Source of the DNA: Megaustenia siamemsis
Lineage: Eukaryota > Mollusca > Gastropoda > Stylommatophora > Ariophantidae
DNA: 64,000 nucleotides
Direction: 5' to 3'
Assembly (NCBI GenBank): GCA_032433765.1
Contig: JAVIAB010000073.1
Span: 58,185,565 to 58,249,564, forward strand
Position numbers and translations under genes: made by a program. The notes beneath the pieces were generated by a model. It did no database searches. It was not told the DNA's origin and saw nothing but the letters and a program-made list of their open reading frames with translations. Below, piece by piece: positions 4,386 through 52,227 of the stretch (within the stretch, counting starts at the first letter, position 1; each line of letters starts with the position of its first letter).

Positions 4386-4539
4386 AACGACACCTCAAGG
4401 GGAATAGTCTTGGGGAATGAAGAGAGTGAATGGTGGAGGGAGGCGGATTAAGATAAAAAAGATGGTCGAAGTTTAGTTAGTTTAGTTGAAAGATCATCTT
4501 CACTGTACAAAGTACAACTACATATTTCTGAGATCACCT

Positions 4540-4640
4540 ACTCAGTACGTTCCCTAGTATAAGCACGCTCGCCCCTCCAGTTACAGCATTGAAGTTGATT
4601 TCAGATAAGGTGCACGAGCTCCGTAGCACCGATGAATAAA
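4540..4640 (-). mobile_element. SINE-2 remnants
   Basis: CTACTCAGTACGTTCCCTAG..CGCCCCTCC parallels the reverse-oriented head of the SINE-2 at 5440-5500. GTGCACGAGCTCCGTAGCAC (4611-4630) parallels the SINE-2 3' end. Both are short and diverged. Confidence 0.5.
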
Positions 4641-4764
4641 GAAAAATGAAAAAAAAATTGATGAAAGTAAAGGTTTAAGGCGTCGAATATTCATTCCAAT
4701 GAACGGCTGTTGCAAAATGCAATGTAATCCTAAATAGAGTTCACAATTATTGGAATATCATTAG

Positions 4765-5026
4765 AGTAAAAGTAAAAGTAAAGTACCCCCGTCACGCCAA
4801 GTGGCGTATAGGGAAATATGGTGTTAGTGACCCTATATTTTACAGACCTTCAGCACATGATTTTTGGGGTAGTGTGGTCGGTATTATGCCCGTGCCGCTT
4901 TACTTTACCAGAAAAAAATCCGGAACCCATTAAAGGCTGGGTGAACCGGAAGCCGTCGGTTGGGATCGAACCCTACCACTTGTCCTTTGTAGTCCAGTTC
5001 ACTAACCACTGAACTATCGCGGCTCC
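4765..5026 (-). mobile_element. SINE-A copy
   Basis: Near full-length reverse-oriented SINE-A: tail AGTAAAAGTAAAAGTAAAG at the left, head AACTATCGCGGCTCC at the right. It abuts the 3' end of a SINE-2 directly. I found no clear target duplication. Confidence 0.9.
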
Positions 5027-5500
5027 CACGAACTCCGTAGCACGGCCTACAATTCACAGTGTGGCTAGGTTTATGTTGACAACTTTGTGGCTAGGTTTAT
5101 GTTGACAACTTTGTGGCTAGCTTTATGTTGACAACTTTGTGGCTAGGTTTATGTTGACAACTTTGTGACTAGGTTTATGTTGACAACTTTGTGGCTAGGT
5201 TTATGTTGACAACTTGTGGCTAGGTTTATGTTGACAACTTTGTGGCTAGGTTTATGTTGACAACTTTCTCTAAGCAGCGGCCATATTTATGACCTACTCT
5301 TTTCGATTTTAACTGCCAATGGATCTTTAACGTGAGCGAGTGCACACGGGACCTTCTGTTTATTAACGTTATTCGGGAGGGCTAGACATCGGATCTCACT
5401 ACCCAAGAGATCAGGTGAGGGTAGCGTCATAAAGAAACCACTCAGTACCTTCCTGCCCTAAAACCAACGTCGCACCTCTAGACTACTCTGCTCCCATATA
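5027..5500 (-). mobile_element. SINE-2 with internal 26-bp array
   Basis: Reverse-oriented copy of a second tRNA-derived SINE. Read on the minus strand it has a head like that at 17335 (AGTAGTCTAGAGGTGCGACG), the body ACGCTACCCTCACCTGATCT, CTTGGGTAGTGAGATCC, AAAGATCCATTGGCAG, CCATAAATATGGCCG and the 3' end GTGCTACGGAGTTCGTG. The segment corresponding to one GTGTGGGTAGATGTTTTCTG stretch of the 18-kb copy has expanded here into the array at 5061-5268. Confidence 0.85.
5061..5268. repeat. 26-bp minisatellite inside SINE-2
   Basis: Eight units of GTGGCTAGGTTTATGTTGAC + AACTTT, nearly identical. Both ends run into SINE-2 sequence. The paralogous SINE-2 near 18.1 kb carries a single diverged version of the unit. 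Confidence 0.96.
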
Positions 5501-5879
5501 ATTATATGCAGACTGGCCAAAAGTCTGGAAATGATCAGTGTACATCCCCATTCTACAGAAAGGAAATCTGAAGCTGTGTTTAATCTACAGAACTATTGTC
5601 CTAATAAACCATGCTAGCATAATACCCTTGCAGGTCATAATTAAGAGGGTAACAAGGAAGTAAGTACAAGAGTTTCATATAGTTCGAGCATGTTCCAGAC
5701 ATAGGAGAGGCCCCCGAGGCCACATCTTAAACATAACAAATATCTTTGATAATTGTAGGAAATACACCATAGAAGTGAGTGTGTTAAAAAAACACCGTGA
5801 ATAGACAGAAAACTAAAATAATGTTCTTTGACAAAACAAAAAGCCAACCCAAAATCATCAACAGAGGAAAACCTGAAAT
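5501..5879. other. Unassigned sequence
   Basis: No recognised element. A 68-codon minus-strand ORF (5641-5847) has no family resemblance. Confidence 0.35.

Positions 5880-14982: not shown

Positions 14983-15040
<58 letters not shown>
14983..15040. repeat. (AT)n microsatellite
   Basis: Pure TA repeat abutting the repeat at 15041. Confidence 0.97.
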
Positions 15041-15042
<2 letters not shown>

Positions 15043-15365
15043 TCCATCAAGACTCAATCAGAGTAGGATTCCAGACTCTCACATGAAGACAGCTGTCTGT
15101 ATACGAGAATTGATCGACCCCATAGACAGAACATCATAATTAGAGTCTGTTAGATCCACCCTGATTGAGTACCTGTTAAAACGTTGCACTGTGTTCTGCG
15201 CCAGTGGCCCAGTGCATCCGATTTCAGCCAGCATTTTATTCAGGTTTGCTTTCTCTAGCCTTTGATTGTCCCCAATCTTCCTGCAAGGCAGCAGATGATC
15301 TTTTCTGTAGGGGGATTCTACCCTTAGATGGTCGGCCCTCCCAGGTTTACGAGCACCATCTGCCC
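15041..15365 (-). mobile_element. Unknown dispersed repeat, copy 1
   Basis: Closely similar to 16236-16470, sharing GACTCAATCAGAGTA, CAGACAGAACATCA, GCACTGTGTTCTGCGCCAGT and GCCAGCATTTTATTC. The minus strand is open and reads NLNKMLAEIGCTGPLAQNTV. In both copies the same end touches a microsatellite (AT here, TC there), which suggests a retroelement whose 3' end carries a simple-repeat tail. No family recognised. This copy extends further than the other at its right end. Confidence 0.75.

Positions 15366-16200: not shown

Positions 16201-16235
<35 letters not shown>
16201..16235. repeat. (TC)n microsatellite
   Basis: Pure TC repeat joined to the unknown dispersed repeat copy 2. Confidence 0.97.
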
Positions 16236-16237
<2 letters not shown>

Positions 16238-16470
16238 GTTCAGGACTCAATCAGAGTAAGGATTCCAGACTCTCATATGAAGTCAGCTGTCAGGCTAAGT
16301 GTGTTGATCGCCCCCACAGACAGAACATCACAATTAGAGTCTGTCAGATCCACTCTGACTGAACACCCGTAAATACGTTGCACTGTGTTCTGCGCCAGTG
16401 GCCCAGTGCATCCGATTTCAGCCAGCATTTTATTCGGGTTTGCTTTCCCTAGCCTTTGATTGTCCACCTT
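16236..16470 (-). mobile_element. Unknown dispersed repeat, copy 2
   Basis: Paralogue of 15041-15365 with the same order of shared blocks. The minus strand reads RLGKANPNKMLAEIGCTGPL. A run of about 100 codons is open here (16273-16584, extending past the repeat), but reading frames differ between copies, so coding is unproven. Confidence 0.75.
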
Positions 16471-17135: not shown

Positions 17136-17334
17136 TCGTGTTTGTCTATCGCCATGAGTTTCCACCGATAATAAATACTTCTTTATTTGTTTTTATTTTA
17201 TAGCAGGGGACCATCTTGTCGAGTGCTCCAATCATATCATAGCAACGGGACTGGCCATGCAGGGTCATTTCAGAAACCAGTTAATTATTACGAAGTGTCC
17301 ATTAATGTTCCCATCTCTTTCCTGACATGTTCGG

Positions 17335-18150
17335 GTTCGGTGGTCTAGAGGTACAACATCGGCGTCAGGACAGGAAGGACTCGGGTTCAAACCCTACCAG
17401 AAGCGGTGATGATTTAAAAAAAAATTATTCCCCGATTACTTTCTGACCATCTTCTTCTTTCTTCTTTTCCCTTTTCACTGATACCTAAAAGGTGTCGTGG
17501 TTTATAGCATTTGTCGTTCTTGTGCTGCTCGAACTGTCTGAATCAGTGATTTTCCTTTGTTGTTACATGTCTCTGTCACTGATGGTGATTGGTAAGGATT
17601 CATTCTGACCAGGTGGCCAAACCATTTAAGTTGTTGTTGTTCTATATATTCTTGGCAGGGTTTTGTTCCTACTATTTTTCTTATGGTTTCATTTGGTATT
17701 CTATCTCTTCTTGTGTTGTTTGTTACTTTTCTCAAGCAACGCATCTCACATGTATTTATCTTTCTTAAATGTGATTTAGAAAGGGTCCATGTTTGACTTT
17801 CATCGCACAAAGTTGGTATGAAGATGTTATTTATCATTTGTTGTTTAGCTGGCATAGAAATGTTTGGATGTCTTAGCAATGGTGAAAGCTGGCATGTGAC
17901 AGCATTTCTGACCTTACCCTCACCTGATCTCTTGGGTAATGAGACCCAATGGCCTTCTTGGATAACGGCAATAAACATCCATCCCCCCTCCCCCTTGTGC
18001 ACTTACGAACGTAAAGATCCATTGGCAGTTAAAATTTAAAAGAGTCAGCCATAAATATGGCCGTTTCCCCGAGCAAAATTGTCAGAAAACATCTACCCAC
18101 ACCGTGGATCCCAGGCCGTGCTACGGAGTTCGTGCACGAGGGCCAGGATT
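17335..18150 (+). mobile_element. SINE-2 split by a LINE
   Basis: Head: tRNA-like A box (TTCGGTGGTCTAGAGG) and B box (GGGTTCAAACCC) at 17335-17400, then a body running to 17448. It resumes at 17914 and continues through CACCTGATCTCTTGGGTAAT, AAAGATCCATTGGCAG, CCATAAATATGGCC and GTGCTACGGAGTTCGTGCAC. The insert is the LINE at 17449-17904. The segment at about 18068-18098 is the single-copy equivalent of the 26-bp array at 5.06 kb. Confidence 0.85.
17449..17904 (-). mobile_element. LINE-A' inserted in SINE-2
   Basis: A subfamily of LINE-A. The minus strand carries QLSPLLRHPNISMPAKQQM, IFIPTLCDESQTWTLSKSHL, RIPNETIRKIVGTKPCQEYI and KWFGHLVRMNPYQSPS. The 3' end is a GAA-rich tail at the left. 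A 9-bp direct repeat (TTTCTGACC) at 17440-17448 and 17905-17913 is the likely target duplication. Confidence 0.85.
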
Positions 18151-19544
18151 CTCCTCGGATTTTGTCGAGATTCTCGAGGAGGATATCGGAGCACCTATAG
18201 GTTCGTCTAGTGTGCAGTGGTGGTGATTCTAACAACAAAGAAACAAACAAGAAACTATCAACACAGCCACGAAGTCTGCAGGCTAGAGATTGTGCTTGAA
18301 GTGATTTCCAAAACTTGTTACGTTGTCCATGATGATATTCATTTTCATTATACGAACACAATTTAAGTCAGGACATCATGTACTTCATGCTTGTCAAACG
18401 TCGATGGCTCTTCTGCGCGCATAGCTTAACCACGGGACCTATGTCCTGTCTTTCGTCTCCGATTGGACTAAACATTCAATGTCATCTAACATTGGGTAAA
18501 GACTTAATATAAAACCACGATATGAAATTCAGACTTAACTACTGTTAGACGCGCTAAGAGTTACCAAATCCGCAACTCTACATGAAGTTACATGTTCTCA
18601 ACTCGATGGCGTTGAAGCACTAATCTTAAATATCGAGAGGAGTATGTGCGAAAAGTGCTGTCAGTCTACTACATTCCTCTCATGCTTAAAATTAATATAT
18701 TATGGGAGAGGTTCCAGCTTGTGCTGCTAAGCAAAAAAAAATGTGATTTGTTTTACTGAATTGTCTTGGTCTTTTATTTTTTACATTAATGCATACGAGA
18801 TGAAGAACACCACAGTTGAACTCATTGCTCATTTTCTGAGACAAACTGTACAATTTAATGTGAACTTCGTCTAACCATTGTTTCATATATTATTTATTGA
18901 TGAATCAAAAAAATGTTATCATTTTAAAATAAAGAAATCTGCAAGATAAATATCAATGAGAAGCAGCCGTGTATTAAGGATTTGTAACGTTTCTGTGCAG
19001 GTATCAGAAAAATAAAAATAATCCAACAATATTTTGAATATGGTCATCAAAATAAAACGTAAATCACAGAGTGATTAAAACTATGTAATGTGGAGTTTCA
19101 CTAACAACAGTAGCGCCGCTAACTGAACTTTTATCACTGACAGATCAACAAACAAATGTCAGGACGTATTCTTGTTATCTGTGAGCAGGTCGTTGTGAAC
19201 AGTCGCCGGGAACGAGGTGAACATAATGTATTATAACAACCTTACATGAGAGAACAGAACACACATGCACACACAAACTTGATGATTCGGCCTTACACAG
19301 GTCTTTTCAGAAACAAAAAAAAAACACAGGACACACAGAAAACGAGAAATGTTCTAAGAAACATCGTAAAAAAGTAAAGAAAAATACGATATACAGAAAA
19401 AAAAATATAATAGGACTTGTCTGCAAGTGGAATCCCAGTCTTCCCTCAACAAGTTGGTGACGTAGAATTAGCACGAAATAAAAAAGAAACAGGGTAGGAG
19501 TTATGCTTGTCTCGTTCGTTACTCAGGGAACAAAGGCTGAGAAG
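18151..19544. other. Unassigned sequence, 1.4 kb
   Basis: The longest stretch in the first 25 kb without a recognised element. AT-rich, only short ORFs, no convincing exon. Confidence 0.4.
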
Positions 19545-39035: not shown

Positions 39036-39194
39036 TACATTGTGTGTGTGTTTAACCTGACGTAATTGTGTGACACATTTTGTAAATGACGACCATAGAT
39101 CGACTTTCTCTGAGTAAGGGGACAAGTAACTGTTGCAGGTTACATTTGGAGGTTGCCTTCTCTTATAATCTATTACACTAACCCACTCTCTTGT

Positions 39195-39416
39195 GTACTA
39201 CAAAGGGCAATAGGTAGGGTTCGATCCCAATCGACGGCTTCCGGGTTCACACAGTCTTAAATGGGTATCGGGTTTTTTCTGGGGAAGTAAAGTGGCACGG
39301 GCGTAATACCGACCACATTACCCCAAAAATCATGTGCCGAAGATCTGTAAAATGTATGGTCACTAACACCATATTCCCTATACGCCACTTGACGTGACGG
39401 GGGTCTTTACTTACTT
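39195..39416 (+). mobile_element. SINE-A copy, head-truncated
   Basis: Begins at TACTACAAAGGGCAATAGG, B box GGTTCGATCCC, body complete to GACGTGACGGGGGTCTTTAC. A 10-bp direct repeat (ACTCTCTTGT) at 39185-39194 and 39417-39426 is the likely target duplication. The 22-bp array starts in the downstream duplicate. Confidence 0.9.
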
Positions 39417-39420
39417 ACTC

Positions 39421-39664
39421 TCTTGTTTACTTGACGTCATTCTATTGTTTACTCGACGTCATTCTATTGTTTACTTGACGTCATTCTATTGTTTACTTGA
39501 CGTCATTCTATTGTTTGCTTGACGTCATTTTATTGTTTACTTGACGTCATTCTATTGTTTATTTAACGCCATTCTATTGCTTGCTTGACGTCATTCTATT
39601 GTTTACTTGACGTCATTCTATTGTTTACTTGACGTCATTCTATTGTTTACTTGACGTCATTCTG
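39421..39664. repeat. 22-bp minisatellite carrying CRE palindromes
   Basis: Eleven units of TTGTTTACTTGACGTCATTC + TA. Nine keep the palindrome TGACGTCA, the consensus cAMP-response element. One unit has TTAACGCCAT and one TCGACGTCA. Confidence 0.96.
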
Positions 39665-45270: not shown

Positions 45271-45639
45271 ATTTAGATAATTATGCATTGTCTAAAATAT
45301 AGATTGACTCACTCGTTACCGAGCCCGGAATTTCTGTAATGACTTTGCCACTAAACACTCATTTCAGTTCCTCAACACATTCTCTAGCTATTCTGTGTGA
45401 ACTCACATGCACTGAACACACACATACACAAACACACAAATACACACATTTTTTGCCCTCACACAAAGAATGTACTTCCGTTCAAATGTTGCAATATCTT
45501 CAATAGTGTTAGAATTATTGCGGAAATGTCGGTTTCGGTAGCAAGTGAGACACCCTGTATTGCTCGCAAGATATATTTTTTTCCATAAACTTAGCATAGC
45601 ATGTTAAAATAACTTTCTCCTTAAAATTAAAAGTGTAAT
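45271..45639. other. Unassigned sequence
   Basis: CA-rich stretch near 45415-45450. Otherwise nothing recognised. Confidence 0.4.
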
Positions 45640-45935
45640 GTGATCAGTATCTTGGAGTCAGTATCATGTGGTCTGTATCACGTGGTCAGTATCATGTGGT
45701 CAGGATCATGTGGTAAGTAAAACGTGGTCAGTATCACGCCAAGCCGTCATACATTTCCCAAAAAAGTATGTTCAGTATCATTTTCAGACGCTGTGTAACG
45801 TCCAAACCCGTGTCAGTTCTCTCTCTCGGCCCCCACCAAAAAAAAATAAATATTCCCATATTTGGCAGTGAACTCGAATCCACCTGGTTTGTAGACGAGC
45901 AGATCAACCACTGCGCTACTACTTCAATTTGTTTC
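45640..45935 (-). mobile_element. Degenerate SINE-A-like element
   Basis: On the minus strand: head AGTAGCGCAGTGGTTGATCT with B-box-like GGATTCGAGTTCAC, a body with GGCTTGGCGTGATACTGACC, then the 13-14-bp array. More diverged than other SINE-A copies. Confidence 0.6.
45648..45738. repeat. 13-14-bp tandem repeat from SINE-A motif
   Basis: Six units of GTGGTCAGTATCAT, diverged. The unit equals the SINE-A internal motif (GTGGTCAGTATCACGCC on this strand) and abuts it. Confidence 0.8.
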
Positions 45936-49945: not shown

Positions 49946-50175
49946 ATGACTGTAACGTTTACGTTCATGTTATGACTGTAATGTTTACGTTCATGTTTTG
50001 ACTGTAATGTTTACGTTTAAGTTATGACTGTAATGTTTAAGTTCATGCTATGATTGTAATGTTTACGTTTATGTTTTGACTGTAATGTTTACGTTTATGT
50101 TATGACTGTAATGTTTAAGTTCATGTTATGACTGTAATGTTTAAGTTCATGTTATGACTGTAATGTTTAAGCTTA
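49946..50175. repeat. 26-bp minisatellite, about 9 copies
   Basis: ATGACTGTAATGTTTACGTT + CATGTT. Variants are TTTACG/TTTAAG and TTCATG/TTTATG. Confidence 0.96.
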
Positions 50176-50579
50176 TGTTAAGAGATGTGTTCATATTTTC
50201 GTTCATCAATGCATTCAGTCAATTATTACAATTCTGAAGCAGAAACATGAGATATGTTCATATTTTCGTTCATCAATGCATTCAGATCTCTAAGGTGTGC
50301 CAGTTATGTCAGCTTTAAAAACAGATTCAATGAAGCGCAGATTCGTCTTGGCAAGTAACATAAAATATGACCGACTGCGGCAAAAATTGTGGTTATGGAT
50401 AAATTAAATAACAATAGCAATAAGAACTGGAAATAAATAGATGTTGCAACAAATATAACAAAGTGTTAGGTGTTATTCTATGTTATCACTATATTTATTT
50501 AATCTGTATAGTCAAATTATTCTACAATTCATAAAAGAGGTGTTTTTAATATCAGTCGATAGTATTAATATAAACAATA
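50176..50579. other. Unassigned; one short direct repeat
   Basis: TTCATATTTTCGTTCATCAA + TGCATTCAG occurs twice, near 50190 and 50256. Otherwise nothing recognised. Confidence 0.5.
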
Positions 50580-51134: not shown

Positions 51135-51640
51135 GATCACCATTGTGAAGACATCCAACATTTCTATGGCAGCTAAACACCAAATGATAAATAGCATTTT
51201 CATACCAATTTGTGCTATGAAAGTCAAACATGGACTCTTTATAAATCACATTTAAGAAAGGTCAATACATGTGAGATGCGATGCTTGAGAAACGTAACAA
51301 ACAACACAATAAGGGATAGAATACCAAATGAAACCATAAGAAAAATGGTAGGAACAAAACCCTGCCAAGAATATATAGAACAACAACAACTTAAATGGTT
51401 TGACCACCTGGTCAGAATGAATCCTTACCAATCACCATCAAGGGCGTTCTTCTCGAGAATGCATGGAAAAAGACCAAAAGGAAGACCCAGAAGAAGATGG
51501 GTAGATCTGCAGTGACAGAGACATGTAACAACAAAGGAAAATCACTGATTCAGACAATTCGAGCAGTGCAGAACGACAAATAATATAACCACGACACCTT
51601 TCGGTACCAGCGAGAAATTGAAAAGAAAGAAAGAAAGATG
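51135..51640 (+). mobile_element. LINE-A' copy
   Basis: KTSNISMAAKHQMINSIFIP, after a frameshift WTLYKSHLRKVNTCEMRCLR, NVTNNTIRDRIPNETIRKMV, QQLKWFDHLVRMNPYQSPSR, RPKGRPRRRWVDLQ. The 3' UTR matches 17.45-17.55 kb and ends in AAGAAAGAAAG. Confidence 0.9.
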
Positions 51641-52227
51641 GTCTACGTCAGATGGTAAAAGTACAGTCAAGGTGACGAACAGAAAAGCTGAAAGAAATAC
51701 TGTGCTACAAATAATGAGCAAGATATCGCTAAATCCATGATCGATAATGGAAGTTATAGAATCTGCTCGTCACTGATACTTTGAGCAGATCTTAACATTT
51801 GGAGGTGAATCCTGCACATTCGCAGAAGAGACAATTCTTTCAAGGCCACAGAAATATGATTTCCGCAGAAAAATATTGTGAACACTGTGGACAACAAAGA
51901 AAGCAACAGTGGTGTACTAAAAGAAGTTAATGCAAAATGAAAGTTTTTTAAAATCAATATTATGAAAGAATCATGACTGTTTTTTTTTAGTCAACAATTG
52001 AGAGAAAAACAGCAGTAATGTGTTTATGGAACTGAAAAAAAAAATGAACTGAAGGAAGAAGAGCTAAAGAAAAAAAGGGAGAAAATCAGTTTGTGAGACC
52101 AGTCTGGTAAGAAATCAATCACATAATGGTGAACAAGTGTAGAGATAGAAAGTTGTAGAGAGACATAGTCATCTAGGCCAACGTACACAGAACTTAGTGA
52201 TAGCGATAATGACATAATATAAATGTC
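51641..52227. other. Unassigned; possible LINE-B debris
   Basis: Includes weak LINE-B-like purine-rich text near 52090-52190 (GAACAAGTGTAGAGATAGAA). Not secure. Confidence 0.35.

Follow-up and report, generated by a model that had tools for sequence, protein, structure and literature searches.

Introduction

Minisatellites born inside SINEs are already known. According to statements in PMC6947457, which cites Jurka and Gentles (2006) and Bois (1998), they have arisen from human Alu and mouse B1 elements. For the human genome, figures given in PMC3389668 attribute at least 23% of minisatellites and satellites to transposable elements (TEs), place two hotspot regions in AluS, and count 300 of 7,276 TE-derived arrays as flanked by direct repeats of 5–20 bp; known mechanisms account there for only 6% of the TE-derived arrays. 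The Haber-Louis model of minisatellite origin is stated in PMC6947457 and is also met in PMC3389668. In the limpet Patella caerulea, the satellite PcH-sat is related to a Nin-SINE, as reported in PMC11121367.

Here we describe an array of 26-bp units inside a copy of a SINE, designated SINE-2, in a 64,000-nucleotide stretch of DNA of Megaustenia siamemsis (the window), together with arrays found in other copies of the same family across the genome. As in the Alu and B1 cases outlined in PMC6947457, the unit comes from inside a SINE and has expanded in tandem. Unlike those cases, the SINE and the animal are others, and many homologous copies are at hand, with array sizes starting from two units at one site. 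The arrays for which PMC3389668 gives no known mechanism have mostly two units, whereas the proto-repeat of SINE-2 goes with arrays of up to about 50 units. The likeness to PcH-sat, as it is portrayed in PMC11121367, is that of tandem DNA related to a SINE; however, PcH-sat is a pericentromeric satellite with 179-bp units that makes up about 10% of the limpet genome, whereas the SINE-2 arrays are short and lie inside SINE copies. With respect to the Haber-Louis model as those two papers put it, short direct repeats flank the 14-bp unit of SINE-2, whereas the 26-bp array is without them. Taken alone, the 26-bp array is ordinary, and the useful part of the material is the replicated 14-bp series.

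The 26-bp array and the two SINE-2 copies of the window

The features of both window copies are listed in Table 1. TRF run on the window reported the array with a period of 26, 8.0 copies and 96% matches, in agreement with the original prediction of an eight-unit array, whose coordinates (5061–5268) denote the same array shifted by one base. Seven units have 26 bp and one has 25 bp. With its head-to-tail tandem arrangement and a unit between 10 and 100 bp, the array is a minisatellite. Differences among the units amount to two substitutions and one deletion, none of them shared by a second unit, so no unit was copied after gaining its change. The array lies within SINE-2 copy 1, an element on the minus strand.

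Table 1. Features of the two SINE-2 copies in the window and of the insertions nested in them
Feature	Position	Strand	Evidence or remark
SINE-2 copy 1, 3' remainder past nested SINE-1	4458–4629	-	Family profile match, model 379–523, E 1.9e-5
Target-site duplication of SINE-1 insertion, copy 2, one mismatch to CACGAACTCCGTAGCAC	4613–4629	+	
Nested insertion: SINE-1 (~4758–5026) and ~130 bp 3' extension	4630–5026	-	SINE-1 matches, alignment, 17-bp target duplication
Target-site duplication of SINE-1 insertion, copy 1, CACGAACTCCGTAGCAC	5027–5043	+	0/300 shuffles as good
SINE-2 copy 1, body directly 3' of array	5027–5059	-	BLAST, alignment, family profile
Minisatellite, 8 tandem units of 26 bp (one 25)	5060–5267	.	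TRF; + strand unit TGTGGCTAGGTTTATGTTGACAACTT
SINE-2 copy 1, 5' part: tRNA-like head and body up to array	5268–5514	-	Family profile match 5514–5238, E 2e-85; alignment
SINE-2 copy 2, head part	17309–17448	+	Family profile match; A box 17341, B box 17385 by box scan
Target-site duplication TTTCTGACC, copy 1	17440–17448	+	4/300 shuffles as good
LINE 3' fragment inside SINE-2 copy 2	17449–17904	-	Same family at 51137–51643; reading frame
Target-site duplication TTTCTGACC, copy 2	17905–17913	+	Alignment, shuffle test
SINE-2 copy 2, body and 3' part	17905–18261	+	Family profile match, E 4e-105
Single unexpanded counterpart of 26-bp unit	18076–18101	+	Alignment
Unexpanded 14-bp seed site CCCACACCGTG GAT CCCAGGCCGTG	18096–18120	+	Site forming arrays at other loci

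The interval originally given was 5027–5500. The array does lie in SINE-2, but the copy is longer, with its head reaching to about 5514 and a 3' remainder at 4629–4458. In the alignment with copy 2 it is without the B-box stretch (a 47-column gap). SINE-1, which is nested in copy 1, is a tRNA-headed family of its own, of which the window contains nine well-preserved copies; a SINE-1 nested nearby was also seen in the alignment of L045, one of the 39 SINE-2 copies fetched from the genome (see below). About 130 bp (4630–4757) separate the SINE-1 tail from the 3' target duplication and are perhaps a read-through 3' transduction.

Copy 2 had been described as lying at 17.3–18.15 kb, with the segment present once and matching SINE sequence on both sides. 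Both points held, but the copy is not continuous, being split by a LINE fragment; this LINE, the nested SINE-1 and the repeated birth of arrays in the SINE-2 family had been overlooked. When joined, the flanks of the LINE fragment read GATTACTTTCTGACCTTACCC, against GGTTTCTTTATGACGCTACCC in the 5-kb copy. Collinearity with that copy is thereby restored, so the joined state represents the empty site of the LINE insertion. Judged by eye from its frame, the fragment resembles the terminal part of a LINE reverse transcriptase; Pfam returned no family for this frame at E 0.001. The 5'-truncation points of this fragment and its relative at 51137–51643 lie within about 20 bp of each other, and the two could be a short internally deleted LINE derivative. 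A reading of the 17.9–18.13 kb block as something other than a SINE, on the grounds that Pol III boxes are missing there, was dropped, as the head lies beyond the LINE insertion.

SINE-2 is a tRNA-headed SINE with about 1000 or more recognisable copies. In copy 2 a scan with the box consensus placed the internal Pol III boxes, A and B, at the 5' end. Short copies are many and dispersed: the unexpanded 33-base site gave 533 + 552 = 1085 matches at up to three mismatches, the 18-kb copy of the window included. The element is about 450 bp long in the alignment of the fetched copies. No target duplications around SINE-2 were found in a scan with the 3' end set at 18134, which is too early by the later profile. 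Searches of the window with Rfam and ARAGORN gave no matches. Among viral contigs, SINE-2 strings matched only as three isolated 19-mers without wider homology, the other strings giving none, and the same string search in genome contigs gave none. In open-access full text, searched by words and short sequence strings, no paper on SINE-2 was found; the strings led to unrelated papers only.

The 26-bp expansion is derived

BLAST paired 5027–5087 with 18134–18074 (80%) and 5241–5433 with 18101–17905 (73%, E 1e-30). Both terminal units of the array thus align to one single unit (~18074–18101) of the 18-kb copy. The predicted single segment in that copy is thus one collinear unit by both BLAST and alignment. 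Identity between the 5-kb and 18-kb copies was 19/26 in the unit and 210/280 in the SINE-2 core (25% different).

The genome search covered 2.59 Gb in 155 contigs. It yielded 5446 first-look candidates, of which the best 40 were scored; one was the window itself, and the 39 other best-scoring copies were fetched and aligned with both window copies. A single unit of 22–28 bases occupied the array site in 40 of 40 other SINE-2 copies (the 39 best-scoring copies and the 18-kb copy), a set in which interrupted copies are under-represented because it was ranked by contiguous score. L028 and L030 appear to be a single segmental duplicate, with neighbouring places, identical site sequence and a common second SINE-2 match in their flanks, so about 38 of the 39 fetched copies are independent. 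A 39-base junction of the array, searched through the 2.59 Gb at up to three mismatches, matched at this locus only (five forward matches, each within the array, against 0 for the reversed control); the query was the array's own sequence, and 26-bp arrays in diverged SINE-2 copies could have escaped it. Since the other 40 copies have one unit and the junction occurs at one locus, the 26-bp expansion is derived. These results support the original prediction that tandem amplification took place from inside a transposon. The count of units across SINE-2 copies that it had called for, made here on the 39 best-scoring copies and the 18-kb copy, gave one unit in each, and an array in most SINE-2 copies, the outcome that it had set against itself, was not seen among these 40.

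Compared with the family consensus over 339 columns, the 5-kb copy has diverged by 20%, while its array units show 2 substitutions in 207 bases (~1%). Since no variant is shared between units, these values suggest that the expansion is much younger than the SINE-2 insertion, rather than that the units have been homogenised since.

Two further ideas were abandoned. Foldback of the array strand as a cause of the 26-bp expansion was unconvincing (z -1.8 and -1.2), and kinship with a second 26-bp array at 49946–50180 relied on a weak match (60%, E 5e-4), the flanks of that array being without a match in the window.

Recurrent arrays at a 14-bp site

The consensus of SINE-2 contains an imperfect direct repeat, CCCACACCGTG / CCCAGGCCGTG, identical at 9 of 11 positions with a spacing of 14; the longest exact, unbroken part of this seed is 5 bp. 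Genome-wide, the 14-bp tandem junction gave 72 + 89 = 161 matches at up to three mismatches, and the reversed control 0. The 100 matches listed among these 161 fall into at least 28 loci (grouped by hand). We read 25 array loci, namely L069 and 24 of the 28 listed loci. Copy numbers at the lower end were 2.3, 2.4, 2.4, 2.8, 3.3, 4.9, 5.4, 6.0, 6.2, 6.9, 7.4 and 7.4, and at the upper end 10.5, 13.1, 13.3, 13.4, 17.8, 22.9, 23.3, 26.9, 30.9, at least 39.4, 40.6, 41.4 and at least 49.5. Flanking SINE-2 sequence of at least 40 bp was present on both sides in 20 loci and on one side only in five (L083, L085, L092, L095 and L097), of which L085 and L092 run into the end of the fetched sequence. L076 and L077 count as one locus, being a segmental duplicate (flanks 99.8%), and 24 of the 25 loci remain. 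Unit variants differ between loci (GGTCTGG, GGACTGG, GCATGG, GATA, GATG), with GGTCTGG recurring.

A 14-bp control segment of SINE-2 without flanking repeats gave 0 junction matches (one control). A second seed, GATTCTC at a spacing of 22, picked from the consensus before the search, gave 40 + 31 = 71 matches. Because just 3 bases separate this pattern from the unexpanded consensus, single matches are mostly unexpanded copies; runs at multiples of 22 bp (C137:39335717–39335904, 8 matches; C107:63021263–63021362, 3; C123:16115573–16116178, 12) nevertheless show that at least three loci are arrays. These observations fit an association between seeds and arrays, which occurred at both of the two seed sites and were absent at the one 14-bp seedless control. 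A seed score equal to that of the hotspot was reached by 17% of 60 random places at a spacing of 14±2. The longer exact seed (7 bp, GATTCTC) had fewer arrays than the imperfect 14-bp seed, so seed length alone is a poor predictor of rate. The segments amplified in L063, L083 and L094 had no strong seed in the SINE-2 consensus.

Under the Haber-Louis model, direct repeats (5 bp or more) are expected at the spacing of the unit, and the 14-bp arrays have them. For the 26-bp array, no direct repeat of at least 3 bp was found at a spacing of 26 in either window copy, and when spacings of 24–28 were allowed on the consensus the best was only a 4-bp match. The 26-bp array is thus without a flanking repeat, and its first duplication had another cause.

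Other arrays within and beside SINE-2

We read ±4 kb around 20 of the 39 copies, which together with the window makes 228 kb. These flanks happened to contain 15 further SINE-2 elements (grouped by hand). Most are short fragments, three extend over more than about 240 positions of the model, and L072 and L074 are a duplicate pair. Two of the 15, L069 and L063, contain internal arrays of SINE-2 sequence, drawn from other segments than that of the window. In L069 a 16-bp unit drawn from the imperfect direct repeat of SINE-2 occupies 456–1090; L063 has an array of 22-bp units at 1434–1879 and one of 26-bp units at 1905–2348. L083 has a 31-bp array at SINE-2 model ~197–227, from the segment that is repeated as 26-bp units in L063, and L094 has a 46-bp array at model ~453–503.

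From 85 arrays with usable flanks that were screened, seven had flanks that matched elsewhere as a collinear pair. Of these, four were kept: the window array (7 pairings), L063 1905–2348, L069 456–1090, and L063 3242–3439, which belongs to another repeat family. Three were dropped by eye, L060 1576–3139 and L069 5827–5924 whose partners lie in nearby low-complexity sequence of a similar kind, and L064 3498–3826, a GA run inside a local duplication.

A preference of arrays for SINE ends was considered and was not supported. In the 228 kb, 4 of 150 ends had an array within 20 bp against about 2.7 expected, and at 30 bp there were 12 against 3.8 (0/500); this excess is largely made of arrays inside split SINE-2 (7 of 13 ends at 45 bp), and the other 6 of 13 equal the expectation of 6.0. 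Junctions of an array with a SINE end within ±400 bp were found at many of the last-listed 19 copies, more than at the first 20. At L033, L034, L035, L037, L039, L047 and L050, one-sided minisatellites start near SINE-2 ends, with a unit mostly unmatched in the other flank.

Several other places in the window deserve mention. At 39176–39663 a SINE-1 has ACTCTCTTGT target duplications, and a 22-bp, 11-copy array starts in the 3' duplication, as if grown from the junction. At 45638–45798 a 14-bp array, ATGTGGTCAGTATC, adjoins a weak SINE-1 match (E 3e-4); its unit appears SINE-1-like by eye, and the array is possibly SINE-born. The stretches 14984–15191 and 16201–16384 are paralogous (85% identical), with (TA)28 and (TC)17, respectively, at the corresponding edge.

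Discussion

We observed one unit at the array site elsewhere and near-identical units here, and from this we infer how the 26-bp array grew. SINE-2 copy 1 would have inserted and aged before 26 bp within its 3' half were duplicated in tandem; the duplicate would then have grown in place to eight units via slippage or unequal exchange, and the 18-kb copy and the other copies examined would retain the ancestral single unit. At the 14-bp site, mispairing between the short flanking repeats (CCCACACCGTG/CCCAGGCCGTG), as in the Haber-Louis model, is the likeliest origin of the recurrent arrays of 2 to about 50 units. Our main reading, with a probability of roughly 0.85, is that the 26-bp array grew in place in an aged SINE-2 and that like events recurred in the family, the 14-bp site being the most productive of those tested, by mispairing.

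If only two copies are compared, an array ancestral to SINE-2 that contracted to one unit in the 18-kb copy looks the same as an expansion at 5 kb. We rejected this history, which we regard as scarcely credible given the single unit in all 40 other copies, a junction found here only at up to three mismatches, and units far more alike than the SINE-2 copies themselves. Nor is the 26-bp array at all likely to be an assembly artefact: assemblies can mis-size short arrays, and here one assembly stands behind the array size, but the private variants in the units and the clean collinear flanks argue for a real array. A more serious alternative is that SINE-2 plays no special part and that old DNA in general gains arrays at such a rate. 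The sequence read is strikingly rich in arrays, with 33 covering 22% of the window (23 of them with a period of at least 10) and 91 with a period of at least 10 covering 23% of the 228 kb. For the 26-bp array taken alone this explanation is reasonable; for the family as a whole we find it somewhat less probable than a role of SINE-2, because arrays recur at one exact 14-bp segment against 0 at the control segment of SINE-2.

For the 14-bp series, the other account to be weighed is that a single SINE-2 subfamily, already bearing an array, was spread by retrotransposition and that the arrays changed in length later. A tree was built from 311 columns outside the array, with 18 of 24 array copies (at least 180 columns filled; 6 dropped) and 40 rows without the 14-bp array (38 of the fetched copies plus the two of the window); 4 of its 55 inner branches were well supported. 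A single clade of the array copies was not rejected by the AU test (p 0.157), and the array label was mildly clustered, requiring 12 changes against a shuffled mean of 15.6 (9 of 500 shuffles as low). The unit CACGGTCTGGGATC, moreover, recurs at several loci. On the other side, the other unit variants differ between loci, the array copies are further apart than the single-unit copies (mean distance 0.274 vs 0.202), and the nearest relative was a copy without the 14-bp array in 17 of 18 cases and another array copy in 1 of 18 (null mean 5.4), both comparisons being weakened by the choice of the single-unit set by score. We consider spread of one subfamily unlikely and favour mostly independent births of the 14-bp arrays, although a retrotransposed two-unit copy may have played a part.

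We lean towards regarding SINE-2 as a replicated natural experiment on the birth of minisatellites. About 1000 recognisable copies carry the proto-repeat of 14 bp, which a few percent or more of the detectable ones would have turned, mostly independently, into arrays; these range from first duplications (2.3–2.8 units) through intermediate sizes to about 50 units, and the one seedless control segment has none. The first duplication of minisatellites is still largely unexplained. A recurrent initiation site, seedless controls in the same copies and graded array sizes, as found in SINE-2, would let the role of flanking repeats, the rate of growth and homogenisation be measured. If this reading of the family is true, the rates of initiation and growth of minisatellites would be readable from one genome.
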